64,000 bases of DNA from Lutibacter oceani (GTDB lineage Bacteria > Bacteroidota > Bacteroidia > Flavobacteriales > Flavobacteriaceae): the NCBI RefSeq assembly GCF_003384935.1, contig NZ_QTTQ01000009.1, positions 1 through 64,000 of the forward strand, read 5' to 3'. Positions 26,618 to 50,097 of this stretch are shown here, piece after piece. Each line of letters starts with the position of its first letter. The stretch's first letter is position 1. The notes beneath the pieces are model-generated. The model was not told the DNA's origin. It did not search any database and saw nothing but the letters and a program-made list of their open reading frames with translations. Made by a program: the position numbers and the translations under genes.

Positions 26618-26631
26618 ATGACTTTAATCAT
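26618..26631 (+). promoter_or_regulatory. CRP/FNR-like box: OB-fold lipoprotein
   Basis: ATGACTTTAATCAT fits WTGA-N6-TCAW and ends 57 nt before the lipoprotein ATG. It is the leftmost member of the series that continues from 32 to 50 kb. Confidence 0.55.
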
Positions 26632-26687
26632 TATTTTTTTAATGAAACACTTTTAAATTAGTTGCCACATTATAAAAAATAAATAAA

Positions 26688-27218
26688 ATGAAAAATATTT
26701 TTTTAGCAATAGCAATCTGTTTATTAATAATCTCTTGTAAAACAGAAAACAAAAAAGTTGAGAATAACACTAAAAAAAATGAAGTTGAAATTGTTGAAAC
26801 TCCACTTTTAACATTAGGTGAATTTGATACAAAAGCTGGCGAATTTGTTGGTAAAGAAATACAAGTTAAAGGTATAGTTGACCACGTTTGTAAACACGGA
26901 GGCAAAAAAATATTATTAGTAACCGATGAAGGAGATGCACATGTTTTTTCAGAAGAAAGGTTTGATGAAGCGTTAATGGGAAGTGAAATTAAAGTAACAG
27001 GTATTGTTTTAGAAGAAAGAATAGATGAAGCTTACTGCTTAAAAATGGAAGAAGATAATATTAAAAGTCATTCTGAAGGGGTTTCAAATCAAGAACAATT
27101 CGAAAATAAAAAGAAACACATACAACAGTTAAGAGATCAAATGAAGGAAAAAGGAGTTGATTATATTTCAAATTATTCCTTACAATATGTTTCATTGGAA
27201 AATATAGATGCAGAGTAA
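26688..27218 (+). CDS. OB-fold lipoprotein
   Basis: This 176-residue protein has a lipoprotein signal (MKNIFLAIAICLLIISC, acylated Cys17). The mature part has a small OB-like beta fold (about 50-125, KEIQVKGIVDHVCKHGGKKILLVTDEGDAHVF) resembling tRNA_anti-like domains. A helical tail follows. A Cys-Lys-His-Gly-Gly-Lys segment (CKHGGKK) could bind metal or nucleotide, but I do not recognise a named function. The PepSY-associated protein is encoded 8 nt downstream, so they probably act together in the envelope. Confidence 0.65.
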   Translation: MKNIFLAIAICLLIISCKTENKKVENNTKKNEVEIVETPLLTLGEFDTKAGEFVGKEIQVKGIVDHVCKHGGKKILLVTDEGDAHVFSEERFDEALMGSEIKVTGIVLEERIDEAYCLKMEEDNIKSHSEGVSNQEQFENKKKHIQQLRDQMKEKGVDYISNYSLQYVSLENIDAE

Positions 27219-27226
27219 AATAAAAT

Positions 27227-27784
27227 ATGAAACAATTGCGAAAATGGAGTAGAATTCTCCATAGAGACATTGGTTTCTTTTTTATAGGAACAACCTTAAT
27301 TTATGCTATATCTGGAATTGCTTTAAATCATATGGCCGATTGGAATCCCAATTATTCCGTTGAAATAAATCAATTTACAACTTCATTAAATTTAGAAAAA
27401 GGTACTACTTCAAAAGAAAACGTATTAAATTTATTAGATAAAATTGATAACAGAAATAATTATAAAAGTCATTATTATCCAGACAATAGAAATATTAAAA
27501 TTTTCCTAAAAGGTGGTTCTTCAGTAGTTGTAAATATTCATAATGGAAACGGAATAGCTGAATACTTAAAAAAAAGGCCCCTAATATTTGAAACCAACTA
27601 CTTACATTATAATCCCAATAGAATTTGGACGTGGTTTTCAGATATCTTTGCAGGTGCATTAATATTGTTTGTTGTTACTTCTTTCTTTATTACAAAAGGG
27701 AAAAAAGGGATTATTGGTCGTGGCGGAATTTATATGTTATTGGGAATAATAATTCCAATATTGTTTTTGATATTTTATATGTAG
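27227..27784 (+). CDS. PepSY-associated TM helix protein
   Basis: The 185 residues begin with KWSRILHRDIGFFFIGTTLIYAISGIALNH, the first helix with paired His residues typical of PepSY_TM proteins. A periplasmic loop follows, then two helices near 136-155 and 165-185. Relatives occur beside metal, heme or siderophore reductases. It forms an operon with the upstream OB-fold lipoprotein. Confidence 0.75.
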   Translation: MKQLRKWSRILHRDIGFFFIGTTLIYAISGIALNHMADWNPNYSVEINQFTTSLNLEKGTTSKENVLNLLDKIDNRNNYKSHYYPDNRNIKIFLKGGSSVVVNIHNGNGIAEYLKKRPLIFETNYLHYNPNRIWTWFSDIFAGALILFVVTSFFITKGKKGIIGRGGIYMLLGIIIPILFLIFYM

Positions 27785-27825
27785 ACAATAATAAAAAATC
27801 AAGTTAAAAAGTATATTTTACTTCA

Positions 27826-27896
27826 ACCTGAACTCGATCCAGGTTCTCATATACATTGCAAATTAATATGATCAGATTCTGAAATAAATTCAGAAT
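27826..27896. other. Two small intergenic hairpins
   Basis: ACCTG/CAGGT (27826-27830, 27840-27844) and ATTCTGAA/TTCAGAAT (27876-27883, 27889-27896) lie between two convergent genes. They resemble degraded intergenic repeats of Flavobacteriia and may end transcription, but no long T-run follows. Confidence 0.3.
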
Positions 27897-27928
27897 GAGC
27901 ATTTTTGCAGCTTTATCGTACTATTTTA

Positions 27929-28978
27929 TTATTTGTTTAATAACATAAAATCCGTTAAAACCATTGCAGCTAATGCCTCTACAATTGGCACTGCTCTTGG
28001 AACCACACAAGGATCATGACGACCTTTTCCGTGCATTTCAACAATATTACCATCTTTATCAATAGTTTCTTGGGCTTGCATAATAGTTGCAACAGGTTTA
28101 AAAGCAACACGAAAATAAATATCCATTCCGTTGCTTATGCCACCTTGAATTCCTCCAGAAAGATTTGTTTTAGTTGTTCCATCAGCATTAAAAATATCGT
28201 TATGCTCACTACCTTTCATTTTAGCACCACAAAATCCGCTTCCATATTCAAACCCTTTTACCGCATTTATTGAAAGCATTGCTTTCCCTAATTGGGCGTG
28301 TAATTTATCAAAAATAGGTTCTCCCAATCCAATTGGCACATTTTGAATAACACAAGTTACAGTTCCTCCAATAGTATCTCCTTGTTTTCTAATAGCATCA
28401 ATTTTTTTAATCATTTTTTCTGCTACTTCGCTATCTGGGCAACGAACAATATTGCTTTCAGTTTTAGAAAAATCCAAATCCTGATATGGTTTTTCTAAAA
28501 ACAAATCTCCTACAGAAGATGTATATGCATTTATTTTTATTGACGGTATTGCCTGCTTAGCAATGGCTCCTCCAACTACCCAATTGGCAGTTTCTCTTGC
28601 TGAAGTTCTACCTCCACCTCTGTAATCTCTGTTTCCATACTTTTTATCATATGTATAATCAGCATGAGAAGGACGGAAAGAATCTTTTATATGTGAATAA
28701 TCATTTGAACGTTGATGAACATTTTCAATAATAAACCCAATTGAAGCACCTGTTGTTTTACCTTCAAAAATTCCAGACAGAAATTTTACCTCATCTGGTT
28801 CTTTACGTTGAGTTACAATTTTAGACTGACCAGGTTTTCTTCTATCCATATCCTTTTGAATAGCATCAAAATCTAGCTCAATTCCTGCAGGACAGCCATC
28901 AATTACACCTCCAATTGCCGGACCGTGAGACTCTCCAAAGGTTGTTATTGTAAATATTTTTCCGAATGAATTAGACAT
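27929..28978 (-). CDS. aroC: Chorismate synthase
   Basis: This 349-residue enzyme takes the last shikimate step, EPSP to chorismate, with reduced FMN. All signatures are present: [18 protein letters not shown] near the N terminus, [26 protein letters not shown], and the C-terminal [18 protein letters not shown]. The start [19 protein letters not shown] is the family norm, and a -7 element lies 18 nt upstream. It is a single-gene unit. Confidence 0.97.
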
Positions 28979-28995
28979 ATCAATAAATTAAGTCA

Positions 28996-29003
28996 CAAAT
29001 GTA
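28996..29003 (-). promoter_or_regulatory. -7 element for aroC
   Basis: The minus strand reads TACATTTG (TAnnTTTG) 18 nt before the aroC start, implying a very short leader. Confidence 0.45.
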
Positions 29004-29048
29004 AAAAAAAGAATCCTATTGATGGTTGATTTGTTCTTTGAAATAAAT

Positions 29049-29801
29049 TTAAAAAAACCAGAGTTTTATTGCCATAATAACAATTACAACTATTAAAAAC
29101 CTACGAACTAAACCGTCTCCTTTTTTAACAGACCATCTGCTGGCCAACCAACCTCCCAAAGCATTTCCAATTGCTAATGTTAAACCAATTCTCCAACTAA
29201 TTTTATCATTATATGCAAAAACTAAAACTGCTGAAAATGTATAAATTAAAACAACTGTTACTTTAACTGCGTTACTTTTAACCAACGATAAATTATTTAC
29301 TGAAGACAATATTAACAACATAATAAAACCAACCCCAGCTTGTATAAATCCTCCATAAATACCAACAAAAAAGAATAGAATAATACTTATCCATAATTTT
29401 TTACCTTCAATTTTCTCTATTGCATTTAATTGTTTTCTTTTTGATTGTAATATCATATAAACAACAATTACGACCATTATTACGGCTAAAATTTTATTAA
29501 ATGTTTCGCCTTTTATGTCAACAGCAATTTGGGCTCCTATAATTGAACCAATCAATGCTGAAATTCCTAAATAAATGCTAAATGGAAATGTAATGATTCC
29601 TTTACTTTTAAATCCGGCAGTTGTAAATATATTTTGAAAAAGAATTGCTATTCTATTTGTTCCATTGGCAATATTTGGAGGTAATCCTAAAAAAATAAGT
29701 ATTGGAAGTGTTAAAAGTGAACCTCCACCAGCAAGTGTATTTATAGCTCCTGCTATAAAACCAACACCAATTAAAACAATAATTTCTACTATAGGGTTCA
29801 T
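29049..29801 (-). CDS. TauE/SafE family permease
   Basis: This 250-residue inner-membrane protein has about eight hydrophobic helices. Paired motifs of the sulfite-exporter/TauE-SafE family are visible: GFIAGAINTLAGGGSLLTLPILIFLGLPPNIANGTNR near the N terminus and GFIQAGVGFIMLLILS midway. The family moves sulfonates, sulfite or other anions; no neighbour fixes the substrate. It is divergent from the tRNA gene. Confidence 0.85.
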   Translation of the reverse strand: MNPIVEIIVLIGVGFIAGAINTLAGGGSLLTLPILIFLGLPPNIANGTNRIAILFQNIFTTAGFKSKGIITFPFSIYLGISALIGSIIGAQIAVDIKGETFNKILAVIMVVIVVYMILQSKRKQLNAIEKIEGKKLWISIILFFFVGIYGGFIQAGVGFIMLLILSSVNNLSLVKSNAVKVTVVLIYTFSAVLVFAYNDKISWRIGLTLAIGNALGGWLASRWSVKKGDGLVRRFLIVVIVIMAIKLWFF

Positions 29802-29817
29802 TATTTTTTTTGAAATA

Positions 29818-29825
29818 CAAATGTA
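29818..29825 (-). promoter_or_regulatory. -7 element for the TauE/SafE gene
   Basis: The minus strand reads TACATTTG 17 nt before the start codon. Confidence 0.4.
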
Positions 29826-29858
29826 CTTTAAAAATTAGTAAAAAAAAGTTGAAAAAAG

Positions 29859-29890
29859 TTTGAGCATAACAAAAAAGGGTTTTATATTTG
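29859..29890 (+). promoter_or_regulatory. Promoter of tRNA-Ser
   Basis: TTTG (29859-29862), a 20-nt spacer and TATATTTG (29883-29890) match the Bacteroidetes consensus. It ends 11 nt before the tRNA. Confidence 0.75.
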
Positions 29891-29901
29891 CCCTCGCTAA
29901 A

Positions 29902-29986
29902 GGAGAAATGGCAGAGTGGTCGAATGCGGCAGTCTTGAAAACTGTTGAGGGTCACACCTCCGGGGGTTCGAATCCCTCTTTCTCCG
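29902..29986 (+). tRNA. tRNA-Ser(UGA)
   Basis: A class II tRNA with acceptor stem GGAGAAA/TTTCTCC, anticodon loop CTTGAAA carrying TGA at 29936-29938, a long variable arm and the T-loop GGTTCGAATCC. It reads UCA codons. CCA is not encoded (GCAA follows). Confidence 0.95.
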
Positions 29987-29989
29987 CAA

Positions 29990-30029
29990 AAAGCCTTGTA
30001 ATCTATTGATTTACAAGGCTTTATTTTTT
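29990..30029 (+). terminator. Terminator of tRNA-Ser
   Basis: AAAGCCTTGTAA (29990-30001) pairs with TTACAAGGCTTT (30011-30022), with a 9-nt loop and a T-run after it. Confidence 0.8.
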
Positions 30030-30225
30030 AGAGCAACTTATAGATAAACTAGCTATAATTTAAATACTGTTTATCGGCACTTTATAAGCAATTAGGTTTA
30101 CTATTATACTAAATAATTTTTGTGAATTCATGTCCTCATTATACTATTACACCCATACACATCTATATAGGGAAGGGGTTAATTTTAGTAAATCAAATTT
30201 TCACAAAGTTTAAACGGTATAATTA

Positions 30226-30486
30226 TTAATGATCTGTTTTTCGGTTTAACTCAAATAATATTCCCTTGATTGAAGCTATCGTTATTACCAAAAAAACAAC
30301 TCCAATAACACAAAGGATTATAACTATTGTTAACCCTTTTAGATGTTCTGAATATGGAATATTTGGATTTCTTCCTTCAACGAGATGTGCTATGCCAAAT
30401 AATAACGTGAATGAACTAATAATAGCTGAAATGATAGTTATAATTATATTGACTAAAATTGGTGCTTTTAATGTTGGAAAATTCAT
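30226..30486 (-). CDS. Small two-helix membrane protein
   Basis: The 86 residues contain two strong hydrophobic segments (about 10-36 and 50-73) and polar ends (ELNRKTDH). I do not recognise a family. An opposite-strand frame overlaps it, but that one has a weaker, non-membrane composition, so I prefer this strand. It lies in a sparsely coding stretch after the tRNA gene. Confidence 0.45.
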   Translation of the reverse strand: MNFPTLKAPILVNIIITIISAIISSFTLLFGIAHLVEGRNPNIPYSEHLKGLTIVIILCVIGVVFLVITIASIKGILFELNRKTDH

Positions 30487-30820
30487 AATTTCCTTAATTA
30501 AAGTTGATAAAGAGATATTTATAAATACTAACTATTCAATTGATAGTTATAACGTTGGGCGTCTTGAGGAGATTGAATATTAAATTTATGACATTTTTTA
30601 ATCAAAAAAAAACAATTTGTGATTTTTTCAGTGAAGATAATTTCGACAAGTAAATTATTGTAAACAAATATTTAGACACCGCAAACAAGCCCGTCATCTT
30701 TTATAGCTGTAAAATGGATAGAAGCTATAATTTGGTGAACTATTCTAAAGTAAGAATGGGATTTTTGAACCTAAATAGGCTTGTGATTGTTTTTTTGGAG
30801 CTGTTTTTTGTTATAAAAAA
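30487..30820. other. Non-coding stretch with a possible structured RNA
   Basis: These 334 nt hold no convincing gene. From 30685 to 30784 an outer stem (ACAAGCC with GGCTTGT) encloses an inner stem (TTATAGCT 30701-30708 with AGCTATAA 30723-30730). A T-run follows near 30789. It may be a small RNA or a terminator-like structure; evidence is pairing only. Confidence 0.25.
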
Positions 30821-32014
30821 TTAAACATTGAAATTTTCAGCAACAATTTTCTTTATTTTTTTGTTAAGGGATTTCATAGCATTATAGCTGGTGTGTTCTA
30901 AAACGATAACTACCAAATCATCTTCCAGGTATTGTGTAAGTCCTGTGCTAAAACCATTCCATTTACCATAATGATATATATTTTTTTGTCCCTTAGTATT
31001 AATACGAAAACCAAAACCATATGGAAATTTTCTTCCATAAACAGTTTCTCCCTCTGAATGCATAAGTTCTAACGATTCTTTAGAAAGTAGTTTCCCATTA
31101 TTTAGCCCAAGAGTCCACTTAAACAAATCCTCAATGGTAGCATATACATTTTTATCTCCAACAACAGCGTCATTTACTGTATTGTTAATTTTTAAATGTC
31201 TCCATCCTCTATATAATCTATACCCATCTAATTGATTTTTTTTAACACTATCATTTTCAAAACTGTATACATAGGTATTTTTCATCTGTAGTGGTTCAAA
31301 AAAATTTCTTTTTAAAAAAGTACCAAAACTGGTACTCGTAACTTTTTCAACAATAGAAGCCAGCACAAAATAACCTGTGTTGGAATAATCAAAATTACGT
31401 CCTGGTTTAAAATACCGCTGCACATTACTTGATTCTAGCAGTTCCATCATTTCGCTATTTGAAGGTGCTTTTTCTTGTTGCCATTTATGCTCGGCAATCC
31501 AAAAATATTTTGGCAATCCAGCTGTATGATTTAGAAGATTTTTAATAGTCACATTTTCATAAGGAAAGTTTGGAAAATAAGTGTTTACTGTATCTGTAAG
31601 CTGAATTTGATTTCTTTCATTCAATAACATAATGGCTGCTGCAGTGAATTGTTTACTTACTGAAGCTAATTGAAACATAGATACTTCATTAAGTGGCTCC
31701 TTCTTTTTAAAATCTGCGTAACCTATTTGATTGTTATAAATGATTTTTCCATTTTTAGCTACCAGTATGGCCCCATGAAAATCATGTCTTTTATTAATAC
31801 GTTTTAATAGTGAATCCAATTTATGGCGCACCTCTTTTGTTGCCTCTTCAGGATATTTTTCTATTAAAATTGCAGGTTCTTCTTTAGGCGAAACAGTAAT
31901 AGGTGTTGCTGTTAAAACAACTTCATTTTTTGAGGCTTCTAACTTACCGCTGAGAAAAAAACCACTCAAAACAACTATGAGGGTTATGGCTATTATTTTA
32001 ATATTTTTTTTCAA
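30821..32014 (-). CDS. Class C beta-lactamase-family serine hydrolase
   Basis: This 397-residue exported protein has an N-terminal hydrophobic anchor/signal (about 5-24). The penicillin-binding/AmpC fold residues are visible: SVSKQF (Ser/Lys of SxxK), YSNTGYF (YxN), and HYGKWNG in place of KTG. The family includes D-amino-acid peptidases, esterases and beta-lactamases; a peptidase or esterase is likelier than resistance here, but I cannot decide. Upstream lies the 453-nt gap before hsp20. Confidence 0.8.
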   Translation of the reverse strand: MKKNIKIIAITLIVVLSGFFLSGKLEASKNEVVLTATPITVSPKEEPAILIEKYPEEATKEVRHKLDSLLKRINKRHDFHGAILVAKNGKIIYNNQIGYADFKKKEPLNEVSMFQLASVSKQFTAAAIMLLNERNQIQLTDTVNTYFPNFPYENVTIKNLLNHTAGLPKYFWIAEHKWQQEKAPSNSEMMELLESSNVQRYFKPGRNFDYSNTGYFVLASIVEKVTSTSFGTFLKRNFFEPLQMKNTYVYSFENDSVKKNQLDGYRLYRGWRHLKINNTVNDAVVGDKNVYATIEDLFKWTLGLNNGKLLSKESLELMHSEGETVYGRKFPYGFGFRINTKGQKNIYHYGKWNGFSTGLTQYLEDDLVVIVLEHTSYNAMKSLNKKIKKIVAENFNV

Positions 32015-32281
32015 ATGGGGTTTTAAAAATTCAGGAGCAAATTAACATTCATTTCTGTATTTTCAAAACGCTAATCTTAATTTTATGTTAGTTTTAGGAT
32101 TTAAGAGGGGCTATTTTACATTTTCCAAATAAAAAACTTCAGCGTTATAATGAAGTTTCTTTTAAATATTTTAGCGAAAAACATTGAATTATGAATCTAA
32201 ATATATTCCTAAGTCACCAACAAATCAGTAATCCCATGTAATAAAATGTGGAGAAAAAATCAGTTTAGTTTTTCGTTAATA

Positions 32282-32295
32282 TTGATGAATATCAA
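32282..32295 (+). promoter_or_regulatory. CRP/FNR-like box, distal site before hsp20
   Basis: TTGATGAATATCAA is an exact match to the classical FNR consensus TTGAT-N4-ATCAA. It is 173 nt before the hsp20 start, so it may be an auxiliary site. Confidence 0.45.
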
Positions 32296-32390: not shown

Positions 32391-32404
32391 TTGAGGGAAA
32401 TCAT
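32391..32404 (+). promoter_or_regulatory. CRP/FNR-like box, proximal site before hsp20
   Basis: TTGAGGGAAATCAT ends 64 nt before the hsp20 ATG. The half-sites TTGAG/ATCAT recur before the BON, dodecin and methyltransferase genes. Confidence 0.55.
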
Positions 32405-32467
32405 TTATATCTCCTATATCAAATATTAATTTAGAGGTATAAAAAGTTTAACTTAAAAATTAAAATT

Positions 32468-32908
32468 ATGTCATTAGTAAAATTTAGAAAAAGTCCTTGG
32501 GAAAATCTTCTATCAACAGATTTGTTGGATTTTAACCCGAATAGTTTATTTAATGAACGCATGTGGTTAAGAAGATTGGAAGAACCTGCATTAAACATTA
32601 AAGAAAAAAAAGATCTTTTTGAAATTGAATTAGCAGCTCCTGGATATTCAAAAAAAGATTTTAATGTTACAATTGATGATGGTTGTTTAAACATTTCAGC
32701 AAAAAGAAGTGAAACCAAGAAAGAAAAAGATGAAAACTATACTCGCAAAGAATTTAGCTATGAATCTTTTGAAAGATCTTTAGAATTACCTGAAAGTGTT
32801 GAAGACGAAAAAGTAAAAGCTGTTTATGAAAATGGTATTTTAAAATTTAGCCTTGCTAAAAAAGAAGCAGCAAAAAAACACAAACCAAAAGTAATTGAAA
32901 TTATTTAA
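32468..32908 (+). CDS. Small heat-shock protein (Hsp20/alpha-crystallin)
   Basis: This ATP-independent holdase chaperone has 146 residues. The alpha-crystallin domain spans about 42-135. It includes FEIELAAPGYSKKDFNVTIDDGCLNISA and the conserved YENGILKFSLAKKE near the end. The tail KVIEII carries the IxI-type oligomerisation motif. Its own box lies 64 nt upstream and a strong terminator downstream, so it is a single-gene transcript. Confidence 0.93.
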   Translation: MSLVKFRKSPWENLLSTDLLDFNPNSLFNERMWLRRLEEPALNIKEKKDLFEIELAAPGYSKKDFNVTIDDGCLNISAKRSETKKEKDENYTRKEFSYESFERSLELPESVEDEKVKAVYENGILKFSLAKKEAAKKHKPKVIEII

Positions 32909-33072: not shown

Positions 33073-33726
33073 CTAATCAACGACTTCTAATTGATTTTCT
33101 ACATCATAAACTCCAGGAGCATAATAAGCTGTTTTTCTGGCTTCTTCTTTTTCTGCATACGAATGTACTTTGCCTCTTAATTTCACTTTGTGCCCATCAA
33201 CTTCTACCTTAATGCTATTTGCATCTAAATCTGCTAATCTTTCAAAAGCTTTGGTAATTTTCTTTTTAATTTCAGAAGGTTCAATAGCTTGTTTTAAGGT
33301 AATATTATTAACTACTTTTTTTACACCAAGTAAATTTTCTACTGCTTTTCTTGCTGCTTCTTTTTGATAAAACCATTGAAGTTCTCCAGAAAGATATACC
33401 CAACCATCACGTACTTCAATTTCAACTTTCTCTTGTGGTACTGATGCATTCCATTCTAAGGCATTTACAACAGCTTTTGCAATTTCTTTATCAGTTTTTT
33501 TATAAGCAGCTCCGTATTTTACTTCTACATCATCTGCAACTGCCTTAACTCCAATTACACTTTTTACAGCTTTTTCAGCGGCTACTTTTTTAGCATAACT
33601 GTCCACAACACCCGTAAGTGTTACTACCCCTTTGTCTACAATAATACCAATTTGTGTTTCATCAATATTTGGTTGCCACATTAATTCATCAAGAACGTCC
33701 TCTTTTATTTCGCTATCTGTTTTCAT
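33073..33726 (-). CDS. Triple-BON-domain protein (OsmY-like)
   Basis: The 217 residues consist of three BON repeats (about 5-70, 78-145 and 150-215), each with a GVVTLTG/GWVYLSG/HKVKLRG turn and a VxGVxxVxN ending. BON domains bind phospholipid membranes, and OsmY-type proteins are induced by osmotic and stationary stress. No signal peptide is evident (MKTDSEIKEDVLDELMW), so this one may be cytoplasmic. A CRP/FNR-like box lies 70 nt upstream. Confidence 0.88.
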   Translation of the reverse strand: MKTDSEIKEDVLDELMWQPNIDETQIGIIVDKGVVTLTGVVDSYAKKVAAEKAVKSVIGVKAVADDVEVKYGAAYKKTDKEIAKAVVNALEWNASVPQEKVEIEVRDGWVYLSGELQWFYQKEAARKAVENLLGVKKVVNNITLKQAIEPSEIKKKITKAFERLADLDANSIKVEVDGHKVKLRGKVHSYAEKEEARKTAYYAPGVYDVENQLEVVD

Positions 33727-33795: not shown

Positions 33796-33809
33796 ATGAT
33801 TTATCTCAA
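33796..33809 (-). promoter_or_regulatory. CRP/FNR-like box: BON gene
   Basis: On the minus strand it reads TTGAGATAAATCAT, with the same half-sites as the hsp20 proximal box, 69 nt before the BON start. Confidence 0.55.
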
Positions 33810-33897: not shown

Positions 33898-33911
33898 ATG
33901 ATATTCATCAA
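33898..33911. promoter_or_regulatory. CRP/FNR-like box, distal site
   Basis: ATGATATTCATCAA fits the pattern but is 171 nt from the BON start and directly behind the patatin gene. Its role is uncertain; a distal site comparable to 32282 is possible. Confidence 0.35.
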
Positions 33912-33925: not shown

Positions 33926-34720
33926 TTAGTAGTTTTCTTGTTTTAAAAATTGAACACCTTTTTTACTTTCCAAAATTTCTATAGCTTCTTTATATCCCAA
34001 TTGAAATATTTCATCTATATTTTTTAAATAAAAAATACTGTAGTTACTCAAATTTTTAGGTGAAATAATTAAATCACAAGCTTCAAACTTTGAGGAAAAT
34101 TCATTTGCATTTTTTATTTTTAAAGCTCTTTCCAAAATGTTGTACGAGTGTTTTAATATTAAATTTTCAACAACATCATCAAATGGGTTTACATTTACTC
34201 CAATTATCTTATCACAAAGTGTTTTAATAATATCTACGGGAAAATTATTTAAGGTTCCCCCATCTATATAATAATCCTGATCAATTTTTACAGGAGTAAA
34301 TAAACCTGGAAATGCTGCAGAAGCCAAAATTGGTTTTATAAGTTCTCCTTCACTAAAAACTTTTAATTCTCCATTTAATAAATTTGTTGCAGTTATAAAT
34401 AGATTTTTCTTTAAGTTTTTAAAGTTATCTATTGGTAAATATCTTAAAAAGATTTCATAAAATTTTTCAGTATCAATAAATCCAGGTTTATTAACCGCAT
34501 ATTTATCAAAACTAAATATTTGTATACTATTAAAAAAATCTAGCATTTCGCTCCAGCTACACCCATTCGCATATAAAGCACCAACTATTGCTCCTGAACT
34601 TGTACCGGCTATATGAGACGCAGATATCTTATACTCCTCCAATGCTTTTATTACTCCTATATGAGCAATACCTCTAGCGCCTCCTCCGGAAAGTACCAAT
34701 CCTATATTCATTTTATACAT
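33926..34720 (-). CDS. Patatin-like phospholipase
   Basis: This lipid acyl hydrolase has 264 residues and a Ser-Asp dyad. The oxyanion hole is GGGARG (about 11-16), the nucleophile is in GTSSG (about 40-44) and the Asp is in DGG near 172-175. The bacterial RssA/YchK type fits. An in-frame Met at 34711 (MNIGLVLSGGG) is the more usual start. Its own CRP/FNR-like box lies upstream. Confidence 0.88.
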   Translation of the reverse strand: MYKMNIGLVLSGGGARGIAHIGVIKALEEYKISASHIAGTSSGAIVGALYANGCSWSEMLDFFNSIQIFSFDKYAVNKPGFIDTEKFYEIFLRYLPIDNFKNLKKNLFITATNLLNGELKVFSEGELIKPILASAAFPGLFTPVKIDQDYYIDGGTLNNFPVDIIKTLCDKIIGVNVNPFDDVVENLILKHSYNILERALKIKNANEFSSKFEACDLIISPKNLSNYSIFYLKNIDEIFQLGYKEAIEILESKKGVQFLKQENY

Positions 34721-34810: not shown

Positions 34811-34824
34811 ATGATTATGGTCAT
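34811..34824 (-). promoter_or_regulatory. CRP/FNR-like box: patatin gene
   Basis: On the minus strand it reads ATGACCATAATCAT, 90 nt before the annotated start or 99 nt before the Met at 34711. It is slightly farther than the others. Confidence 0.45.
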
Positions 34825-34863: not shown

Positions 34864-35721
34864 CTAGTTTTTTGTGGTTGATTTTGCAGGCTCAAGTAAA
34901 TTAAAAAATTGATCTAATTTTGGTAATATAATTATTTCAGTTCTTCTATTTTTAGCACGTCCTTCTTTAGTTTCATTAGTATCTTTAGGAATATATTCTG
35001 AGCGTCCTCCAGCAGTCATTCTTTCTGGTTTTACACTAAATTCAGTTTGCATTAACCTTACAATTGAAGTGGCTCTTTTTACGCTTAAATCCCAATTATC
35101 CAACAAACACTCTGTATAAATTGGAACATTGTCTGTATGTCCTTCAACCAAAATATCTAATTCTTTATGGTCATTAACAATTTTTGCTATTTTTCCAATT
35201 ACCTCTTTAGCTCTTGCGCTTAATTTATAGCTTCCAGATTTAAATAGCATTTTATCTGAAACAGATACATATACTACACCTTTTTTTACTTCAATATAAA
35301 TGTCTTCATCATCAAAATTATCTAAGGATCTTTTTAAATTCATTACCAGTACTAAGTTTAATGAATCTTTTCTTTGCATTGAAGTTGTTAGGTTTATAAT
35401 ATATTTATTTTGTTCATTTAAAGCTTCTAAAGATTTTTTAATGCTTTCTGCACCTGATTTACTAACTATTGATAAATCAGAAAGGCGGTCTAACAAATTA
35501 GTATTGGTACTTTTAAAATAATCTAATTGGTTTTCTAATTTTGATAACTTATTTTTTTCATTTGATAAATTAGTCTCTAAAATTAGCTGTTCACTTTTAC
35601 ACGAGCTCAATTCATTTTCAAATTGATCTTTTTGATTTTCTAATTCGGTATATTTTTTTTGACTTACACAAGATGTTAGTACTATCAAAAAAAATAACAT
35701 TATACGTTTTAAAGTTTTCAT
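34864..35721 (-). CDS. OmpA-family peptidoglycan-binding lipoprotein
   Basis: The 285 residues start with a lipoprotein signal (MKTLKRIMLFFLIVLTSC). A coiled coil follows (about 22-80, ENQKDQFENELSSCKSE...). The C-terminal OmpA domain (about 165-275) has LVEGHTDNVPI, WDLSVKRATSIVRLM and GRAKNRRTEIIILP, the residues that bind diaminopimelate of peptidoglycan. It tethers an envelope layer to the wall. A perfect CRP/FNR-like palindrome lies 64 nt upstream. Confidence 0.9.
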   Translation of the reverse strand: MKTLKRIMLFFLIVLTSCVSQKKYTELENQKDQFENELSSCKSEQLILETNLSNEKNKLSKLENQLDYFKSTNTNLLDRLSDLSIVSKSGAESIKKSLEALNEQNKYIINLTTSMQRKDSLNLVLVMNLKRSLDNFDDEDIYIEVKKGVVYVSVSDKMLFKSGSYKLSARAKEVIGKIAKIVNDHKELDILVEGHTDNVPIYTECLLDNWDLSVKRATSIVRLMQTEFSVKPERMTAGGRSEYIPKDTNETKEGRAKNRRTEIIILPKLDQFFNLLEPAKSTTKN

Positions 35722-35785: not shown

Positions 35786-35799
35786 ATGACTGCAGTCAT
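35786..35799 (-). promoter_or_regulatory. CRP/FNR-like box: OmpA lipoprotein gene
   Basis: ATGACTGCAGTCAT is a perfect palindrome, extended to 18 bp by flanking A/T. It lies 64 nt before the start on the minus strand. Confidence 0.6.
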
Positions 35800-44520: not shown

Positions 44521-45552
44521 TTAAACACTAACTAATTTTTCCACTGCATTTACTATTTTTTCTGAGTTTGGAATTACATTTTTTTCAAGTACTCGGCTAT
44601 AAGGTATTGGCACGTCTGGAATTGCTAAACGACCAATAGGAGCATTTAAATAATTAAATCCTTCAGAAGCTACAATGGCACTAATTTCTGCTGTGATTCC
44701 ATAGGATAAGTAATCTTCATCAACCACTAATAAATGATGTGTTTTTGCAACCGAATTTAAAATAGTTTCTTTATCAATTGGTTTTATAGATCTTAAATCT
44801 ACAACCTCTGCATTTATTCCTTTTTTAGCCAAAATATCTGCAGCTTTCAATGCTTCAACTGTCATCATTTGAACACCAACAATGGTAACATCTTCACCAC
44901 TTTTTACAATTTTAGATTTATTTAAAGGCACTTCGTAAGCTTGTTCTGGCACTTCTCCAAATGAAGCGTCTAACTGATCCATCCAACCAAGTCCTTGAAG
45001 CGTTTTATGAAACATAAACACTACAGGATTATTATCTCTAATTGCAGCAATTAGCATCCCTTTTATGTCGTACGGAAATGTAGGAGCTACAACTTTTAAA
45101 CCTGGTAAATGACCAAAACTTGCATATAATGTTTGAGAATGTTGAGCGGCATCACTATAACCTCCACCAACAGCTGTAAGCAACACTATTGGCAGTTTTA
45201 CATTACCTCCACTCATATAATGAATTTTTGCCATATGATTGTAAATTTGATCCATAGCAACACCATGAAAATCTACAAACATTAATTCCACTACTGGTCT
45301 TAACCCTTCTGCTGCAGCACCAATTGCTGCTCCAATAAAGCCTGTCTCTGAAATTGGAGTGTCCATCACTCTTTCTTTTCCAAATAGGTCGTATAAACCA
45401 GATGTAGAACCAAATATTCCTCCATACTTTCCAATATCTTCCCCCATTATAAATATGCTGTCATCAATATCCATTTCTTGCTTTAAAGCCTGAGCCATAG
45501 CCTTGCTTCCAGTAAGTTTTTTTATTTTTTCTAGTGTTTTTTCCATTTTCAT
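44521..45552 (-). CDS. 2-oxoacid dehydrogenase E1 beta subunit
   Basis: The 343 residues carry the transketolase pyrimidine domain (GEDIGKYGGIFGSTSGLYDLFGKERVMDTPISETGF near the start) and the C-terminal domain with EVVDLRSIKPID. It forms the heterotetramer with E1alpha. The branch resembles acetoin or branched-chain enzymes as much as pyruvate dehydrogenase, so the substrate is open. It lies 32 nt after E1alpha and 11 nt before the lipoyl domain. Confidence 0.88.
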   Translation of the reverse strand: MKMEKTLEKIKKLTGSKAMAQALKQEMDIDDSIFIMGEDIGKYGGIFGSTSGLYDLFGKERVMDTPISETGFIGAAIGAAAEGLRPVVELMFVDFHGVAMDQIYNHMAKIHYMSGGNVKLPIVLLTAVGGGYSDAAQHSQTLYASFGHLPGLKVVAPTFPYDIKGMLIAAIRDNNPVVFMFHKTLQGLGWMDQLDASFGEVPEQAYEVPLNKSKIVKSGEDVTIVGVQMMTVEALKAADILAKKGINAEVVDLRSIKPIDKETILNSVAKTHHLLVVDEDYLSYGITAEISAIVASEGFNYLNAPIGRLAIPDVPIPYSRVLEKNVIPNSEKIVNAVEKLVSV

Positions 45553-45584
45553 ATTGTTTTAACTTATGCTGTAAATAATAAAAT

Positions 45585-46574
45585 TTAACAGAACACATCT
45601 TCCAGTGCTTCTGCTGGTTCAGGATATTTGCTATGTTTAGCAAATTCATAAGCAGTATTAACTTCTTTAATAATTAAACTATCAACAGTATCTAACTCTT
45701 CAATTGTTACATAGTTTGCTTTTATTAACCTTTTTCTCAGTTTACTAATTGGATCTTTCTTTATTAAACTAGGTACTTCTTTTTTGTTTCTATACAACTC
45801 TGGATCACCTTGAAAATGCCCCAAATAACGATCTGTTTTAATTTCAATAATAGAAGGTCCTTCATCATTTCTGGCTCTTTCAACAGCTTCTTTACTTACT
45901 TTGTACATTTCAACGGGATCATTATTTTTAACATAATATCCATTAATATCATAAGCCTTTGCTCTTGTACAGTTAAACGGTACACTTGTAGAATTTTCTT
46001 TGGCTACAGAAATTGCCCAGGAATTATCTTCTACAACAACAATAAAGGGTAATTTCCAAAGTGCAGCTAAATTTAACGATTCGTGAAAAGCTCCAGTATT
46101 TGCAGCCCCTTCTCCAATAAAAGCAACTGCAACCCAATTAGTATTTCTTTTTTTATTTGCTAAAGCAGCACCAACCGCATGTGGTATTCCAGCACCAACA
46201 ATTCCACCACAAGAGAACTTAACTTTTGGATCAAATAAATGCATATGGCCGCCTTTACCTTTGCTAAGCCCCGTTTTTTTTCCATAAATTTCTGCAGTCA
46301 TTTTATTTAAATCTACCCCTTTTGCAATAGCTTCATGATGAGGCCTATGTGTTGCTGTAACTGTATCATTTTTAGTTAAATGGACAATCATTCCTGCTGC
46401 AGCAGGTTCTTGCCCGTTTGAAAGGTGCATTTCACCTGGAACTGGTCCAGATCCAATATTAAAAATAGGTTGCTTTCCTTCTAAATATTCTTTTTCCATT
46501 CGCTCTTCAAAACAACGTGATGTCTTCATTACACGATACATCCAAAGCAAATCTTTTTTTCTAATGTTATCCAT
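45585..46574 (-). CDS. 2-oxoacid dehydrogenase E1 alpha subunit
   Basis: The 329 residues bind thiamine diphosphate through the GEGAAN...ESLNLAALWKLPFIVVVEDN motif. HRPHHEAIAKGVDLNKMTAEIYGKK and GGHMHLF place it in the PDH/acetoin E1alpha family. It decarboxylates a 2-oxoacid or acetoin and passes the acyl group to a lipoyl domain. It is the first gene of the 13-gene operon, with a CRP/FNR-like box 49 nt upstream. Confidence 0.88.
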   Translation of the reverse strand: MDNIRKKDLLWMYRVMKTSRCFEERMEKEYLEGKQPIFNIGSGPVPGEMHLSNGQEPAAAGMIVHLTKNDTVTATHRPHHEAIAKGVDLNKMTAEIYGKKTGLSKGKGGHMHLFDPKVKFSCGGIVGAGIPHAVGAALANKKRNTNWVAVAFIGEGAANTGAFHESLNLAALWKLPFIVVVEDNSWAISVAKENSTSVPFNCTRAKAYDINGYYVKNNDPVEMYKVSKEAVERARNDEGPSIIEIKTDRYLGHFQGDPELYRNKKEVPSLIKKDPISKLRKRLIKANYVTIEELDTVDSLIIKEVNTAYEFAKHSKYPEPAEALEDVFC

Positions 46575-46623
46575 GATACTTTATTTTAATATTTAAAATT
46601 AGTACTGCTTTCAACGCTATAAA

Positions 46624-46637
46624 ATGACCACAGTCAA
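46624..46637 (-). promoter_or_regulatory. CRP/FNR-like box: E1alpha operon
   Basis: ATGACCACAGTCAA (minus: TTGACTGTGGTCAT) lies 49 nt before the E1alpha start and would control the whole leftward operon. Confidence 0.55.
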
Positions 46638-46654
46638 TTATAAACATTCACTAA

Positions 46655-46668
46655 ATGAGAGATATCAT
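46655..46668 (+). promoter_or_regulatory. CRP/FNR-like box: universal stress protein gene
   Basis: ATGAGAGATATCAT ends 56 nt before the rightward usp start. It is separate from the box for the divergent E1alpha operon. Confidence 0.55.
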
Positions 46669-46723
46669 TTAAAAAACAGTATAAGAATTCTAATTTTATT
46701 ACCTCTAATTAATTAAAGCCATC

Positions 46724-47566
46724 ATGGAAACAATTATACATGCAACAGATTTCTCAAAAAATGCTTCAATAGCATTAAAATATGCACATGCTTTATATAA
46801 AAAACTAAATGCAAGTTTATGGGTAATTCATATTTATGATGCAACATCAATGAGTTCTGATTTATCTGAAACCTATTTTTTACCAAAAAAAGAGCTTAGA
46901 AAAAAAAAGAATGATACTATTAAAGAACATTGTATCAATATTTTAGGTGACGACTTTGAAAAAGATAATATTAAAATTGCTTCCATTGAAAATTCGTCCG
47001 TTTTAAAAGGAATTATTAAAAAAGCTAAAGATTTAAATGCTTCGCTAATTGTTACCGGAATGCAAGGAAAAAGTGCCTTCAAAGACTTTTTTATGGGTAA
47101 TACTACAAAGCAACTTATTGAGAAAGCACCTTGTGCAGTTTTGGCAATTCCAGCCAACTCCAGGCTAAGAGAACTTAAAACAATTGTGTATGCATCGGAT
47201 TTTGAAGAGGAGGATATTAGTGCAATTTCTAATTTAGCTAATATTGCAAAATTTTTTAATGCTAAAATTAAAATAGTTCATATTTCTTCTGAAAAAGAAA
47301 AAAATGGTGAAACTGAAATGGAATGGTTTAAAGAGATGGTTTTACAAAATGTAAGCTATAAAAATTTAGAATTTGCCATTTTTACTTCAAATGATATTTT
47401 TAATTTTCTGAAAATTTATTTGGAAGAAGTTGAAGCAGATATGGTAGCCATGCTTGAAAGAGAAAAAAAAGGTTTCACTAAAAAACTATTTCATGAAGAC
47501 TTGGTAAAAAAAATGGAACACCAAAGTACAATTCCTTTATTAAGTTTTAATGAAATAAACTATTAA
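46724..47566 (+). CDS. Tandem universal stress protein (UspA)
   Basis: The 280 residues contain two UspA domains (about 1-145 and 148-280). Domain 1 has the ATP-binding GMQGKS...GNTTKQLIEKAPCAVLAIP pattern (G-2x-G-9x-G-N/T). Domain 2 has lost it (MVAMLEREKKGFTKKLFHED), a common division in tandem Usp proteins. Universal stress proteins rise under energy or oxygen limitation. It is divergent from the E1alpha operon. Confidence 0.9.
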   Translation: METIIHATDFSKNASIALKYAHALYKKLNASLWVIHIYDATSMSSDLSETYFLPKKELRKKKNDTIKEHCINILGDDFEKDNIKIASIENSSVLKGIIKKAKDLNASLIVTGMQGKSAFKDFFMGNTTKQLIEKAPCAVLAIPANSRLRELKTIVYASDFEEEDISAISNLANIAKFFNAKIKIVHISSEKEKNGETEMEWFKEMVLQNVSYKNLEFAIFTSNDIFNFLKIYLEEVEADMVAMLEREKKGFTKKLFHEDLVKKMEHQSTIPLLSFNEINY

Positions 47567-47617
47567 TAAATTTAAACTGTACGTTAGGTAAAATTCAACA
47601 CAAAAAGAAGCTTCAAT

Positions 47618-48247
47618 TTAATATTTTTTAATCAAATTTTCCATTTCTAGTTGTTCAATAATACTATCAACATAATCTTTTACTGTTGATGTTATTTTTT
47701 GCGGATTCACCAAATCCAAAGCTCCTACCCAAACCAACAATTTGTTTTCTGCTCCGTTAAGGTTATATATAGAAGTTTCAACATGGTAAACATTGTAGGT
47801 ATCATAATAGCGTGGCGTGTAATAAATATCTTGATATCTATAATAGTACCGTCCAAAACGAGACCATCTGTATCCAACTGTATAGTAACCATCATCATAA
47901 CTTATTTTTTCATCAACACCTTTAACAGCTGTAATAACAACAGCATCAAATCCTTCTTTTGAAATTTCATTTATCATTTCATCAATTTCGGCTTCACTTT
48001 TTTTAGAACTGGTAAAAGTATCGTCTAAAACAGTATTGCTTTCTATTGCATTTATGTTTCTTTGAACAAAAGCATTTTTTAAATCTTCTTCAAAAATTTT
48101 ACGAGCTGTTAAGTTGTCAGTCATTCCAATTATTAAAACTTTTTCAGGTTTAAAAGTGGTTATTTCAGGGTTCCTCCAACTATCAACAAATCTAGTTGTA
48201 GAACAAGAAATTAAAACTAGAAATACAATTATTATTATTTTCCTCAT
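47618..48247 (-). CDS. DUF4136-like lipoprotein
   Basis: The 209 residues begin with a lipoprotein signal (MRKIIIIVFLVLISC). The fold-like pattern CSTTRFVDSWRNPE...KVLIIGMTDNLTARKIFEEDL and a Tyr-rich stretch (about 120-155) fit DUF4136 or related envelope lipoproteins. Function is unknown. A CRP/FNR-like box lies 74 nt upstream; the gene is convergent with usp. Confidence 0.7.
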   Translation of the reverse strand: MRKIIIIVFLVLISCSTTRFVDSWRNPEITTFKPEKVLIIGMTDNLTARKIFEEDLKNAFVQRNINAIESNTVLDDTFTSSKKSEAEIDEMINEISKEGFDAVVITAVKGVDEKISYDDGYYTVGYRWSRFGRYYYRYQDIYYTPRYYDTYNVYHVETSIYNLNGAENKLLVWVGALDLVNPQKITSTVKDYVDSIIEQLEMENLIKKY

Positions 48248-48321
48248 GATTCAAAAATTTTAGTGCTTTAAAGTTAAAAAGCATCCATTTTATTTAGTAT
48301 GATTTGTATCAGCTAAAAAGA

Positions 48322-48335
48322 ATGATTTACATCAA
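48322..48335 (-). promoter_or_regulatory. CRP/FNR-like box: DUF4136-like gene
   Basis: ATGATTTACATCAA (minus: TTGATGTAAATCAT) lies 74 nt before the leftward lipoprotein start. Confidence 0.5.
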
Positions 48336-48390
48336 TTTACACAAATAATTTACCTTAAATAATTAAGTTCCGTTTTATAAAAAAACAGCA

Positions 48391-48404
48391 TTGATGTGTG
48401 TCAT
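48391..48404 (+). promoter_or_regulatory. CRP/FNR-like box: BaeRF gene
   Basis: TTGATGTGTGTCAT ends 47 nt before the ATG at 48452. It overlaps an upstream in-frame ATG at 48398, which argues against that start. Confidence 0.5.
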
Positions 48405-48451
48405 TTTTAATAATTGCTTCTATTATTAAATTCGTTATAAAAATAAAAGTT

Positions 48452-49621
48452 ATGTATATCTCAAACAACCATCCGTTACCAATTAAAACTTTTAAAACTT
48501 TAGCAAATAATCATAACCTACATTGTGTATCAATATACCTGCCAATGGATAAAGGAGGTAAGGAACAAAATGAACATTTAGCACAATCCAAATTAAGCCA
48601 ATGCATAAGAGAAGTACATGATACATTATTACAACATGGAATAAATGATAAAGAGATAACAAGTTATCTTATGCCTATACAAGCATTAATTGCAGATTCC
48701 GAATTGTGGAGGAATCCATCTGATGGCTTGGCTCTTTTTTTAGATAAAAATGGATTAAAATACTATTCATTACCAATTCCTTTTGAAAATTTCACTTTTG
48801 TTGCCGACCATTTTTATTTAAAACCGTTGCTTCCTTTATATCATGATGATGGCATTTTTTATTTGTTAGAATTAAGTGAAGATTACGTAAAATTATTTAA
48901 AGGTTCTAGATATAGTTTTAATGATCTTTATTTTGAAGATTATACTCCAAACCAATTAGAAAAAGTAGTTGGTTTTGATTATAAACCAAAAATGTTTCAA
49001 TTTAGAAGTGGACAAAATGCCTTTAGCTCTGGTTCTTTTCACGGTCATGGTGAAGGTAAAGATGATAAAAAAAAGGAGCTTACATTATTTTTTAAAGCTA
49101 TAGATATAGGTGTTAATATTGCAATTAAAAATAAAAAAGCACCTTTAATAATTGCTTGTGTAAGTGAATTATTTAATACTTATAAAAAAGCAAATACGTA
49201 TCCTAACCTTTTTAACAAATATATTCCTGGTGATCCTCAATTTAAAAATAAAAAGAAATTACACGAAGAATCATGGAAAATGTTAGAGGGATATTTTGAG
49301 AAAACTAAAAAGGACAAGTTATATCAGTTTTCAGAATTGTATAATACACCTAAAATATCATATCAGGTTAATGAAATTGTACCTGCAGCATTAAATGGAA
49401 AAATAGATACTCTTTTTGTACAAAAGGACAAGGATATTTATGGCATTTTTAATAAAGAAAATAATCATTTAACTCTTAATTCTAAAAAGGACCTTTATAA
49501 TGGATCTTTAACAAATTTAACATCCTTAAAAACTTTTGTTCAGGGAGGAAACGTTTACATTTTAGAACCTGATAAAATGCCTATAAAAGGACATCCTTTA
49601 AATGCCATATTCAGGTATTAA
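48452..49621 (+). CDS. BaeRF-family (bacterial eRF1-like) protein
   Basis: This protein of 389 residues (407 from an ATG at 48398) resembles the bacterial archaeo-eukaryotic-release-factor-like families. Supporting features are CVSIYLPMDKGGKEQNEHLAQSKLSQCIREV near the N terminus, PLPIPFENFTFVADHFYLKPLLP, and a middle domain with LLELSEDYVKLFKGSRY. I chose 48452 (MYISNNHPL) because the longer version adds a hydrophobic stretch not expected in this soluble family and its start lies inside the CRP/FNR-like box. A ribosome-linked stress role is inferred from the family only. Confidence 0.75.
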   Translation: MYISNNHPLPIKTFKTLANNHNLHCVSIYLPMDKGGKEQNEHLAQSKLSQCIREVHDTLLQHGINDKEITSYLMPIQALIADSELWRNPSDGLALFLDKNGLKYYSLPIPFENFTFVADHFYLKPLLPLYHDDGIFYLLELSEDYVKLFKGSRYSFNDLYFEDYTPNQLEKVVGFDYKPKMFQFRSGQNAFSSGSFHGHGEGKDDKKKELTLFFKAIDIGVNIAIKNKKAPLIIACVSELFNTYKKANTYPNLFNKYIPGDPQFKNKKKLHEESWKMLEGYFEKTKKDKLYQFSELYNTPKISYQVNEIVPAALNGKIDTLFVQKDKDIYGIFNKENNHLTLNSKKDLYNGSLTNLTSLKTFVQGGNVYILEPDKMPIKGHPLNAIFRY

Positions 49622-49631
49622 AAATAGTGAA

Positions 49632-49645
49632 TTGAGCAATATCAT
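49632..49645 (+). promoter_or_regulatory. CRP/FNR-like box: dodecin gene
   Basis: TTGAGCAATATCAT ends 60 nt before the dodecin ATG. Confidence 0.55.
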
Positions 49646-49704
49646 TTCTTACAAGTATTAGAACTTATAAATTCATTAAATATTAATAGTAAAACAAAAA
49701 AATT

Positions 49705-49911
49705 ATGTCTGTCTTAAAAGTTATTGAAATCTTAGGAAATTCAACAGTGAGTTTTGAAGATGCTGTACAAAATGTTATTAATGATACAGCAAAATCAGTT
49801 AAAAATATAAAATCTGTATATCTTAAAGATATGCAAGTTACTGTGCAAAACAATAAAATAAAAGAATACCGGGTAAACACAAAAGTTACTTTTGGTGTTA
49901 TAGATGATTAG
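49705..49911 (+). CDS. Dodecin (flavin-binding storage protein)
   Basis: The 68 residues match the dodecin length and pattern: KVIEILGNSTVSFEDAVQNVINDTAKSVKNI then YRVNTKVTFGVID. Dodecins form hollow dodecamers that hold FMN or riboflavin and protect cells from free flavins. The aromatic flavin-stacking Trp of some archaeal dodecins is absent, so binding mode may differ. It has its own box and terminator. Confidence 0.85.
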   Translation: MSVLKVIEILGNSTVSFEDAVQNVINDTAKSVKNIKSVYLKDMQVTVQNNKIKEYRVNTKVTFGVIDD

Positions 49912-49962
49912 CACTTTTTAATTAGTAATTAGAGGTTAGTAGTTAGTAGTTAGTTGAATGAG

Positions 49963-50024
49963 TGAGGTATTTTTCAAAAGGTAAAATAGTTATCTAATAA
50001 TTATTTGAAAGTACCTCATTTTTC
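49963..50024 (+). terminator. Terminator after dodecin
   Basis: TGAGGTA (49963-49969) pairs with TACCTCA (50012-50018), with further pairing inside (TTCAAA/TTTGAA), then TTTTTC. Confidence 0.6.
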
Positions 50025-50083
50025 TATTGACTTTTTAATAAATATTATTTTCTGAAATAAATTATCTTAGAAAGTACTTCATC

Positions 50084-50097
50084 TTGAGAATTATCAT
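50084..50097 (+). promoter_or_regulatory. CRP/FNR-like box: methyltransferase gene
   Basis: TTGAGAATTATCAT ends 56 nt before the start at 50153. This is the rightmost box of the series. Confidence 0.55.

Follow-up and report, generated by a model that had tools for sequence, protein, structure and literature searches.

The window analysed here is a 64,000-nt stretch at the start of contig C1 (NZ_QTTQ01000009.1, positions 1 to 64,000) of the 3.38-Mb, 16-contig genome of Lutibacter oceani. Between positions 26618 and 50097, it holds a group of genes for Hsp20, a BON-domain protein, a universal stress protein (Usp) and other proteins, which are preceded by short intergenic palindromes of the pattern WTGA-N6-TCAW. 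In keeping with the CRP/FNR-type stress regulon proposed in the original prediction, this appears to be a real, well-formed Crp/Fnr class II regulon of a known kind. Gene calls are ATG-started open reading frames with a minimum length of 60 or 90 codons, which makes intergenic space and distances approximate.

The group opens with the operator ATGACTTTAATCAT (26618-26631, plus strand) before a lipoprotein gene starting at 26688, and the -7 box TAAATTAG follows at 26654-26661, leaving a gap of 22 nt. The Hsp20 gene (32468-32908, plus strand) has two operators: a proximal one, TTGAGGGAAATCAT (32391-32404), with the -7 box TAATTTAG at 32427-32434, again at gap 22, and a distal one, TTGATGAATATCAA (32282-32295), about 109 bp further upstream. 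A distal copy is found in many Lutibacter. On the minus strand, the gene of the BON-domain protein (33073-33726) is also preceded by two operators, TTGAGATAAATCAT at 33796-33809, with gap 22 to TAGTTTTA, and a distal one at 33898-33911. Next on this strand come a patatin-like phospholipase (33926-34720; operator at 34811-34824), where no -7-like box stands at gap 22 (3 of 6 letters), and an OmpA-family protein (34864-35721), whose operator ATGACTGCAGTCAT (35786-35799) lies at gap 22 to TCACTTTG. The operators before the dehydrogenase E1 alpha component (E1alpha; gene 45585-46574, operator 46624-46637, both minus strand) and before Usp (gene 46724-47566, operator 46655-46668, both plus strand) are neighbours, and each has TAATTTTA at gap 22. 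Judging from gene order, the former may serve a long minus-strand run, E1alpha-E1beta-lipoyl-HlyD-ABC-MacB. The lipoprotein gene at 47618-48247 (minus strand), named DUF4136-like in the original prediction, has no Pfam match. The site assigned to it there (48322-48335) exists, but has no -7-like box at gap 22 (2 of 6 letters); the promoter fit belongs to an unlisted, degenerate 14th operator 23 bp away, CTGATACAAATCAT (48299-48312, minus strand), in class II position with gap 22 to TAACTTTA (5 of 6 letters). The remaining operators are on the plus strand, each with a -7 box at gap 22: one at 48391-48404 (TAAATTCG) before the BaeRF family 7 protein (48452-49621; 84% match in Lutibacter flavus DSM 27993), one at 49632-49645 (TAAATTCA) before a small gene (49705-49911) earlier named dodecin, a putative family assignment, and one at 50084-50097 (AACCTTTG) before a methyltransferase (50153-50791).

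The pattern WTGA-N6-TCAW occurs 24 times in the window against 10.8 ± 3.1 in shuffled sequence, and none of 100 shuffles reached 24. The 13 positions named in the original prediction are all among these matches. They are a selection, but a sound one, as they are exactly the intergenic matches; the other 11 lie inside called genes (12088, 18054, 27360, 28715, 28856, 31607, 34001, 38149, 43905, 50550 and 61474). The centres of the 11 proximal sites are 54-98 nt from a start codon, and those at 32282 and 33898 are at about 179 nt. The housekeeping flanks hold no intergenic site in 1756 + 899 intergenic bp, compared with 13 in the 4517 bp of the cluster. The 13 are thus TGA-N6-TCA palindromes in intergenic, start-proximal places, and the one at 32282 (TTGATGAATATCAA) is an exact fit to the textbook consensus of the FNR box. 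The same sequence, TTGAT-N4-ATCAA, is given as the anaerobox of FixK/FnrN in a passage of PMC7888657.

Across the whole genome, the pattern has 751 matches, and its reversed form 435. A sample of 40 stretches of 20 kb (800 kb) was taken in near-even steps through contigs C1-C3; the steps were set after the positions of the regulators described below were known, and three stretches hold a regulator (L089, L094 and L100). Coding matches in this sample are at chance (130 observed, 132.6 expected under a first-order model), and intergenic matches, in 83.5 kb, are raised (26, or 27 in a strung-together count, against 9.75 ± 3.3 expected). Four control cores showed no comparable intergenic excess. 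With 13 sites in 4.5 kb, the window cluster is some nine times as dense as the intergenic part of the sample. The motif is far from equally frequent inside and outside genes. Stretch L089 is the densest of the 40, with eight intergenic sites, and its removal leaves 18 in the sample; 27 stretches contain no such site. It is extremely improbable that the boxes are chance palindromes of an AT-rich genome. Such a reading could draw on the 11 window matches inside genes and the chance density of genic matches in the sample, and it is opposed by the intergenic enrichment, the preferred spacing and the conservation. For the 13 as a set, a chance origin was rejected on the enrichment, the spacing and the combination of operator and -7 box, although single sites, such as those before the patatin and methyltransferase genes, may still be fortuitous.

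Oriented to the nearest gene, 139 sites from the own genome and Lutibacter relatives approximate aaTTGA[T/G]nnnnATCATTT, with T at the first position in 93 and at the last in 122. In most sites, a sigma-A -7 box, TAnnTTTG, sits 22 nt past the operator. The mean box score of the 11 proximal window sites at gap 22 is 4.45 of 6, compared with 2.06 over offsets (0 of 1000 shuffles); TAnnTT stands there in seven, and 5 of 6 letters are matched in eight. Five sites of a second cluster, which surrounds the candidate regulator, score 4.6 at the same gap. TAnnTT is found at gap 22 in 79/113 sites of the relatives (next best offset: 8) and the -7 box in 36/52 sites of other genera. Over 944 kb of the own genome, the operator followed by TAnnTT at gap 21-23 occurs 35 times in intergenic space, 31 times at gap 22, and three control cores gave 2, 3 and 0. 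The Bacteroidetes sigma-A -7 box is placed at -12 to -5 in a passage of PMC9723704; together with the 22-nt gap, this puts the 14-mer at -48 to -35. With the transcription start taken from that published box position, the predicted operator centre, -41.5, is the position of a class II activator. Most sites keep this fixed distance, those before the patatin gene and at 48322 being exceptions, and the preferred distance makes the assignment as Crp/Fnr-type class II operators well supported. Operators that overlap a promoter can repress, and the boxes might accordingly be read as repressor sites. However, an operator that occupies the position of the -33 element and keeps a preferred 22-nt gap to the -7 box is laid out as for class II activation, which leaves repression very unlikely.

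The spacing recurs in other contexts. Proximal hsp20 boxes were at gap 22 in all 18 genomes measured. Neighbouring operators are 22 bp apart, i.e., two helical turns, in 30 of 76 pairs in Lutibacter relatives (L140-L159, L164-L177), and this distance is absent from those listed for 10 operator pairs in other genera; going by these pairs, the 22-bp tandem arrangement is peculiar to Lutibacter. Two adjoining small genes elsewhere in the own genome (L162:18657-19094 and 19198-19584) each have a class II operator before them, and the first has no NCBIfam match.

Conservation was examined before orthologues of at least 50% identity in the fetched Lutibacter stretches, with the operator core sought at -115 to -45. 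Stretches L160-L163 and those of the relatives are a non-random selection, centred on regulators, Hsp20, BaeRF or known clusters. The operator was present before HSP20 in 12/12, BON in 4/4, DUF4136-like in 4/4, Usp in 5/6, OmpA in 1/1, E1alpha in 1/1 and BaeRF in 2/6 cases (4/6 within 250 nt). It was mostly missing before patatin (present in 1/4) and methyltransferase orthologues (0/2), and the lipoprotein gene at 26688 had no orthologue among these stretches. In the second cluster, it preceded Usp in 10/11, an MlaE-like gene in 5/7, a lipoprotein in 4/4, a PepSY-like gene in 4/4 and a hibernation-factor type in 3/5. For comparison, genes unrelated to the reference set had it in 47/375. Among presumed inner genes of operons, ABC (0/4), ArsC (0/3) and E1beta (0/1) lacked it; HlyD (1/4) and a 149-residue protein (2/4) have it where gene order differs. 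A full WTGA-N6-TCAW site was lacking in seven of 30 Hsp20 loci read, some of these seven being truncated at a contig end or belonging to other families. The conservation is thus kept for several genes within Lutibacter, but fails for patatin and methyltransferase and, outside the genus, for hsp20 (see below). The earlier idea of a Crp/Fnr-type operator marking stress genes is supported by class II geometry, enrichment and conservation before orthologues.

As had been noted before, no Crp/Fnr regulator is encoded in the window: no HTH_Crp match was obtained there (E 0.001). Two cyclic-nucleotide-binding proteins at 2741-4657 and 5390-7309 are without an HTH_Crp match, are weakly like CBS-containing families and lie outside the operator set. 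Elsewhere in the genome, Crp/Fnr-family regulators are present, a profile search finding seven genes with HTH_Crp_2. Three of them (L002, L003 and L004) are fusions of a receiver domain, a cNMP-binding domain and HTH_Crp, recognised by Pfam for L003 and by alignment for L002 and L004, and each is adjoined by a PAS-kinase-like gene. The fusion L003 (G000:C2:24707-25759; L089:4704-5759) lies behind an overlapping PAS kinase gene. Around it, in the densest sampled stretch, is the second cluster, with genes for Usp, a ribosome-hibernation-type protein, an L,D-transpeptidase and, named by eye, an Mla-type transporter. An alignment of 43 fusions shows Asp52 of the receiver and E317 and R321 of the recognition helix conserved in at least 95%. 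The cyclic-nucleotide pocket of CRP has a motif of the GE ... RxSA type. An alignment did not find this cAMP-binding pocket in the fusion regulator, which has FGF...PYQESA where 4cyd has FGE...PRTSSA.

The operators are linked to this regulator in several ways. In one relative (G019), window-type genes and the L003 cluster are merged in one locus with 13 sites in 20 kb, where HSP20-BaeRF-Usp-HlyD-ABC adjoins the Mla-type transporter, the kinase, an L003-type regulator and Usp. In six other Lutibacter, a fusion regulator stands directly before an Hsp20 gene (detailed below). Among 36 same-genus relatives, the L003 type is found in 18/20 genomes with an HSP20 of at least 61% identity and in 4/16 without (p 1e-4, uncorrected for ancestry). 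Moreover, the 23 L003-type genomes (own included) show a larger median excess of the asymmetric pattern TTGANNNNNATCATTT over its control, 5.28 per Mb, than the 14 others, at 2.73, which include genomes with other fusion types (Mann-Whitney p 1.9e-4, again uncorrected for ancestry). Among 149 genomes sampled from the family, 66 encode a full-length fusion, a count that takes in the own genome and one further Lutibacter; at E 1e-40, the 23 genomes searched from other families of the order gave none.

The system is also recognisable in other genera. Eighteen stretches of 20 kb each, chosen from genomes with good regulator matches, hold 67 intergenic sites in 39.6 kb, compared with nine for a reversed-core control, and site density is 0.20 per kb in coding and 1.69 in intergenic sequence. 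The order kinase-regulator-Usp is kept in 17/18, with an operator between regulator and Usp in 15/18. In addition, ccoI or ccoNO lies within the stretch in 8/18, an FNR homologue in 6/18 and an Hsp20 gene in 5/18. In L288 and L293, the cbb3 genes, the kinase, the fusion regulator, Usp and FNR follow each other in that order with operators between them; in L288, the cbb3 model was met and the Fnr model was matched below its cut-off. Given operator linkage, spacing, conservation and co-occurrence, the L003 fusion is preferred as activator and, on this comparative evidence, is probably the main one at the boxes.

Several observations weigh against this assignment. In Lutibacter, the operator precedes the kinase in 4/11 cases and the regulator gene itself in 0/11. 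Of 19 hsp20 loci outside the genus whose genomes encode the regulator, three have a site, in no case with a -7 box at 22, and the 11 loci of regulator-negative genomes have no site; hsp20 was accordingly rejected as a family-wide target. An excess of TTGANNNNNATCATTT also occurs without the L003 type in G017 (17 vs 3), G006 (19 vs 6) and G033 (21 vs 8). G015, a 62% complete genome, has hsp20 operators without an L003-type regulator, and G009, here grouped with the genomes lacking one, carries a 404-codon frame that matches the Crp part at 38%. The L002 paralogue (L161) shows the order kinase-regulator-Usp, and no full operator was found in its 20 kb.

Some of these points bear on whether the window genes are mainly controlled by another Crp/Fnr paralogue, i.e., one of the fusions L002 and L004 or of the single-domain proteins L005-L007. 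Besides the existence of seven HTH_Crp genes, L004 would be favoured by the class II boxes before and behind its kinase in the own genome. Furthermore, a fusion lies directly upstream of an Hsp20 gene in six Lutibacter (G035, G028, G020, G012, G025 and G033), L004-like in the five classified; that of G012 is in two pieces, and the Hsp20s behind these fusions are another paralogue, 44-50% identical to the window Hsp20. The lack of sites around L002 and the L003 type in the merged G019 cluster stand against this alternative, and we consider it improbable. The stand-alone FNR-like protein (L094:18205-18891) is a somewhat stronger candidate for main or only regulator, with the fusions acting elsewhere, but still an unlikely one. 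It is present in all 36 same-genus relatives, and its recognition helix, read by eye, has the same E..R pattern. Its gene lies at a conserved symmetric box beside the cbb3-linked ATPase gene in 26/30 loci, three of the four others ending at a contig end. Near its start, this protein (L001) has a CxxC pair, with three more cysteines, and matches the Fnr model with 91.7 of 228 bits, below the cut-off; the fusions begin with a receiver domain where FNR has its N-terminal Fe-S cysteine cluster. However, FNR-positive genomes without the L003 type tend to a smaller TTGANNNNNATCATTT excess, and three show none (G007, 7 vs 6; G009, 11 vs 15; G036, 16 vs 16). In the own genome, the symmetric form ATGA..TCAT is found in 7/7 hand-picked respiratory-type sites and in 5/21 stress-cluster sites, a comparison that excluded ten sampled sites preceding other genes as well as L094:18922, where a hairpin-like TTGA..TCAA directly follows fnr. 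In Lutibacter, the box between fnr and ccoI is at gap 21 towards ccoI in 26/26, as are 15/18 symmetric boxes on the ccoN side, whereas hsp20 boxes are at gap 22.

Neither letters nor gap served as a fingerprint of the regulator. Assigning TTGA..TCAT to the fusion and ATGA..TCAT to FNR separates the own-genome sets and fails across genera: most operators there are ATGA..TCAT (56/67), the FNR type and that of the fnr/ccoI box, so letters cannot separate fusion from FNR, a further point against the fusion. The gap of 21 or 22 holds as a distinction in Lutibacter, but four cco boxes of two other genera are at 22, 22, 22 and 21. FixK and FnrN share boxes in rhizobia according to a passage of PMC7888657, and by analogy it is quite possible that the fusion regulator and the FNR-like protein do so too.

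With the L003 fusion still the preferred activator, its signal may be sought in the adjoining kinase. FixL senses through a haem His and a distal Arg. The best PDB match of the kinase's PAS part is FixL (1d06), with E 4.1e-11 for the own kinase and 4e-15 for the L288 homologue, DosP coming next for the latter. The PAS part is thus homologous to the haem PAS of FixL; at E 1e-5, it has 14 PDB matches, one of them a multi-sensor kinase and the rest FixL, DosP or other haem-PAS entries. With kinases grouped by their identity to the own kinase (50%), the FixL His is found in the own kinase and, among Lutibacter kinases, in 12 of the 13 at or above this value and in one of the 10 more distant; in other genera, 18/18 have it. 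The FixL Arg is found in 15/18 of other genera and in none of the 10 more distant Lutibacter kinases. It is also absent from all 13 Lutibacter kinases nearest the own, and the L. flavus kinase lacks the His; these two observations make haem sensing uncertain in Lutibacter, where the sensor may have changed.

The targets point in a similar direction. Operators in the own genome also precede ccoI, the ccoN region, a PhsA-like molybdoenzyme, a rhodanese-like protein, sulfide:quinone reductase, a protein weakly like multihaem cytochromes and a DsrO-like protein; among these respiratory targets, only the cbb3 and sulfide:quinone reductase models pass cut-offs. The claim of one stress regulon was consequently too narrow, the operator also standing before cbb3 oxidase and sulfur or anaerobic-respiration-type genes. 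Based on the FixL-like PAS, the FixL His and Arg kept in most kinases of other genera, the operators before respiratory genes and the cbb3/FNR gene context in relatives, low oxygen or a related redox signal is the best inference.

From the operators, their preferred spacing, their conservation and their linkage to the regulator, which are read from the sequence itself, we infer the following mechanism. The PAS histidine kinase would be activated by low oxygen, or by a redox or gas signal akin to it, and would phosphorylate the product of the overlapping gene, L003, which is most likely the activator. The phosphorylated regulator would act as a Crp/Fnr-family activator rather than a repressor: as a dimer in class II position at -41.5, it would overlap the place of the -33 element and recruit sigma-A RNA polymerase to the TAnnTTTG -7 box. 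Extra upstream boxes, in this genus often 22 bp off, would strengthen recruitment. Protective genes would thereby be switched on, i.e., those for Hsp20, Usp, BON, BaeRF and lipid transport. The two paralogues of L003 and the FNR-like protein might share the sites. In outline, this would be the rhizobial FixL-FixJ-FixK pathway with a single protein in the roles of FixJ and FixK. On a wider scale, it is conceivable, if somewhat short of probable, that low-oxygen survival in Flavobacteriaceae runs through such a compressed FixL-type pathway, composed of a FixL-like PAS kinase and a single receiver-Crp/Fnr activator. It would be clustered with cbb3 oxidase, Usp and FNR in several genera and, in Lutibacter, extended to a large Hsp20/Usp/BON/BaeRF regulon with a sensor drifted from the FixL oxygen pocket.

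Related systems are known. Class II promoters of E. coli FNR and CRP have the same operator core centred at -41.5. The promoter element here differs, being TAnnTTTG at gap 22, and the favoured regulator carries a receiver domain. The mycobacterial DosR/DevR dormancy regulon resembles the Lutibacter system in that genes of the Hsp20 and Usp types are under two-component control; DosR belongs to the LuxR type and has another box, and homology is not claimed. The rhizobial FixL-FixJ-FixK and hFixL-FxkR-FixK plus FnrN systems, as outlined in passages of PMC7888657, likewise combine a FixL-related PAS kinase with a receiver and a DNA-binding part of the Crp/Fnr type, use a TGA-N6-TCA anaerobox in common with an FNR protein and have cbb3 targets, cbb3 here lying near the regulator in 8/18 of the other-genus stretches. 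In contrast, no separate FixJ receiver protein switching on fixK was found here; receiver, cNMP and HTH_Crp are in one protein, and the system was therefore not classed as a FixLJ-FixK member. Further differences are the Bacteroidetes sigma-A -7 geometry, the stress-type targets, an own kinase without the FixL Arg and a description from sequence. The Myxococcus NmpRSTU oxygen-utilisation regulon also connects two-component control to oxygen depletion and includes a Usp target, but its regulator is NtrC-like, and Crp goes unmentioned in the sections of PMC11841059 consulted. In a passage of PMC8510549, Crp/Fnr homologues of a Flavobacteriales metagenome-assembled genome are treated as likely MalR homologues.

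In the literature searched, no description of a receiver-Crp fusion in Bacteroidetes and little on oxygen-type transcription control in Flavobacteriaceae were found. As far as these searches can tell, a fused FixJ/FixK-like regulator with this regulon is new. Promoter geometry, the wider target set and the candidate regulator go beyond the original prediction. They provide an operator with exact promoter geometry, a regulator to examine and a testable target list, and tie the receiver-Crp fusion, common in Flavobacteriaceae, to a stress regulon. They also indicate that the unusual promoter of the Bacteroidetes accommodates class II geometry of the Crp/Fnr kind. As for the symmetric FNR-type pattern, its excess over 60 genomes is uneven and mostly small; the highest count was obtained in a genome of another family (G047), with 29 matches to AATGAYNNNNRTCATT against two for the control.

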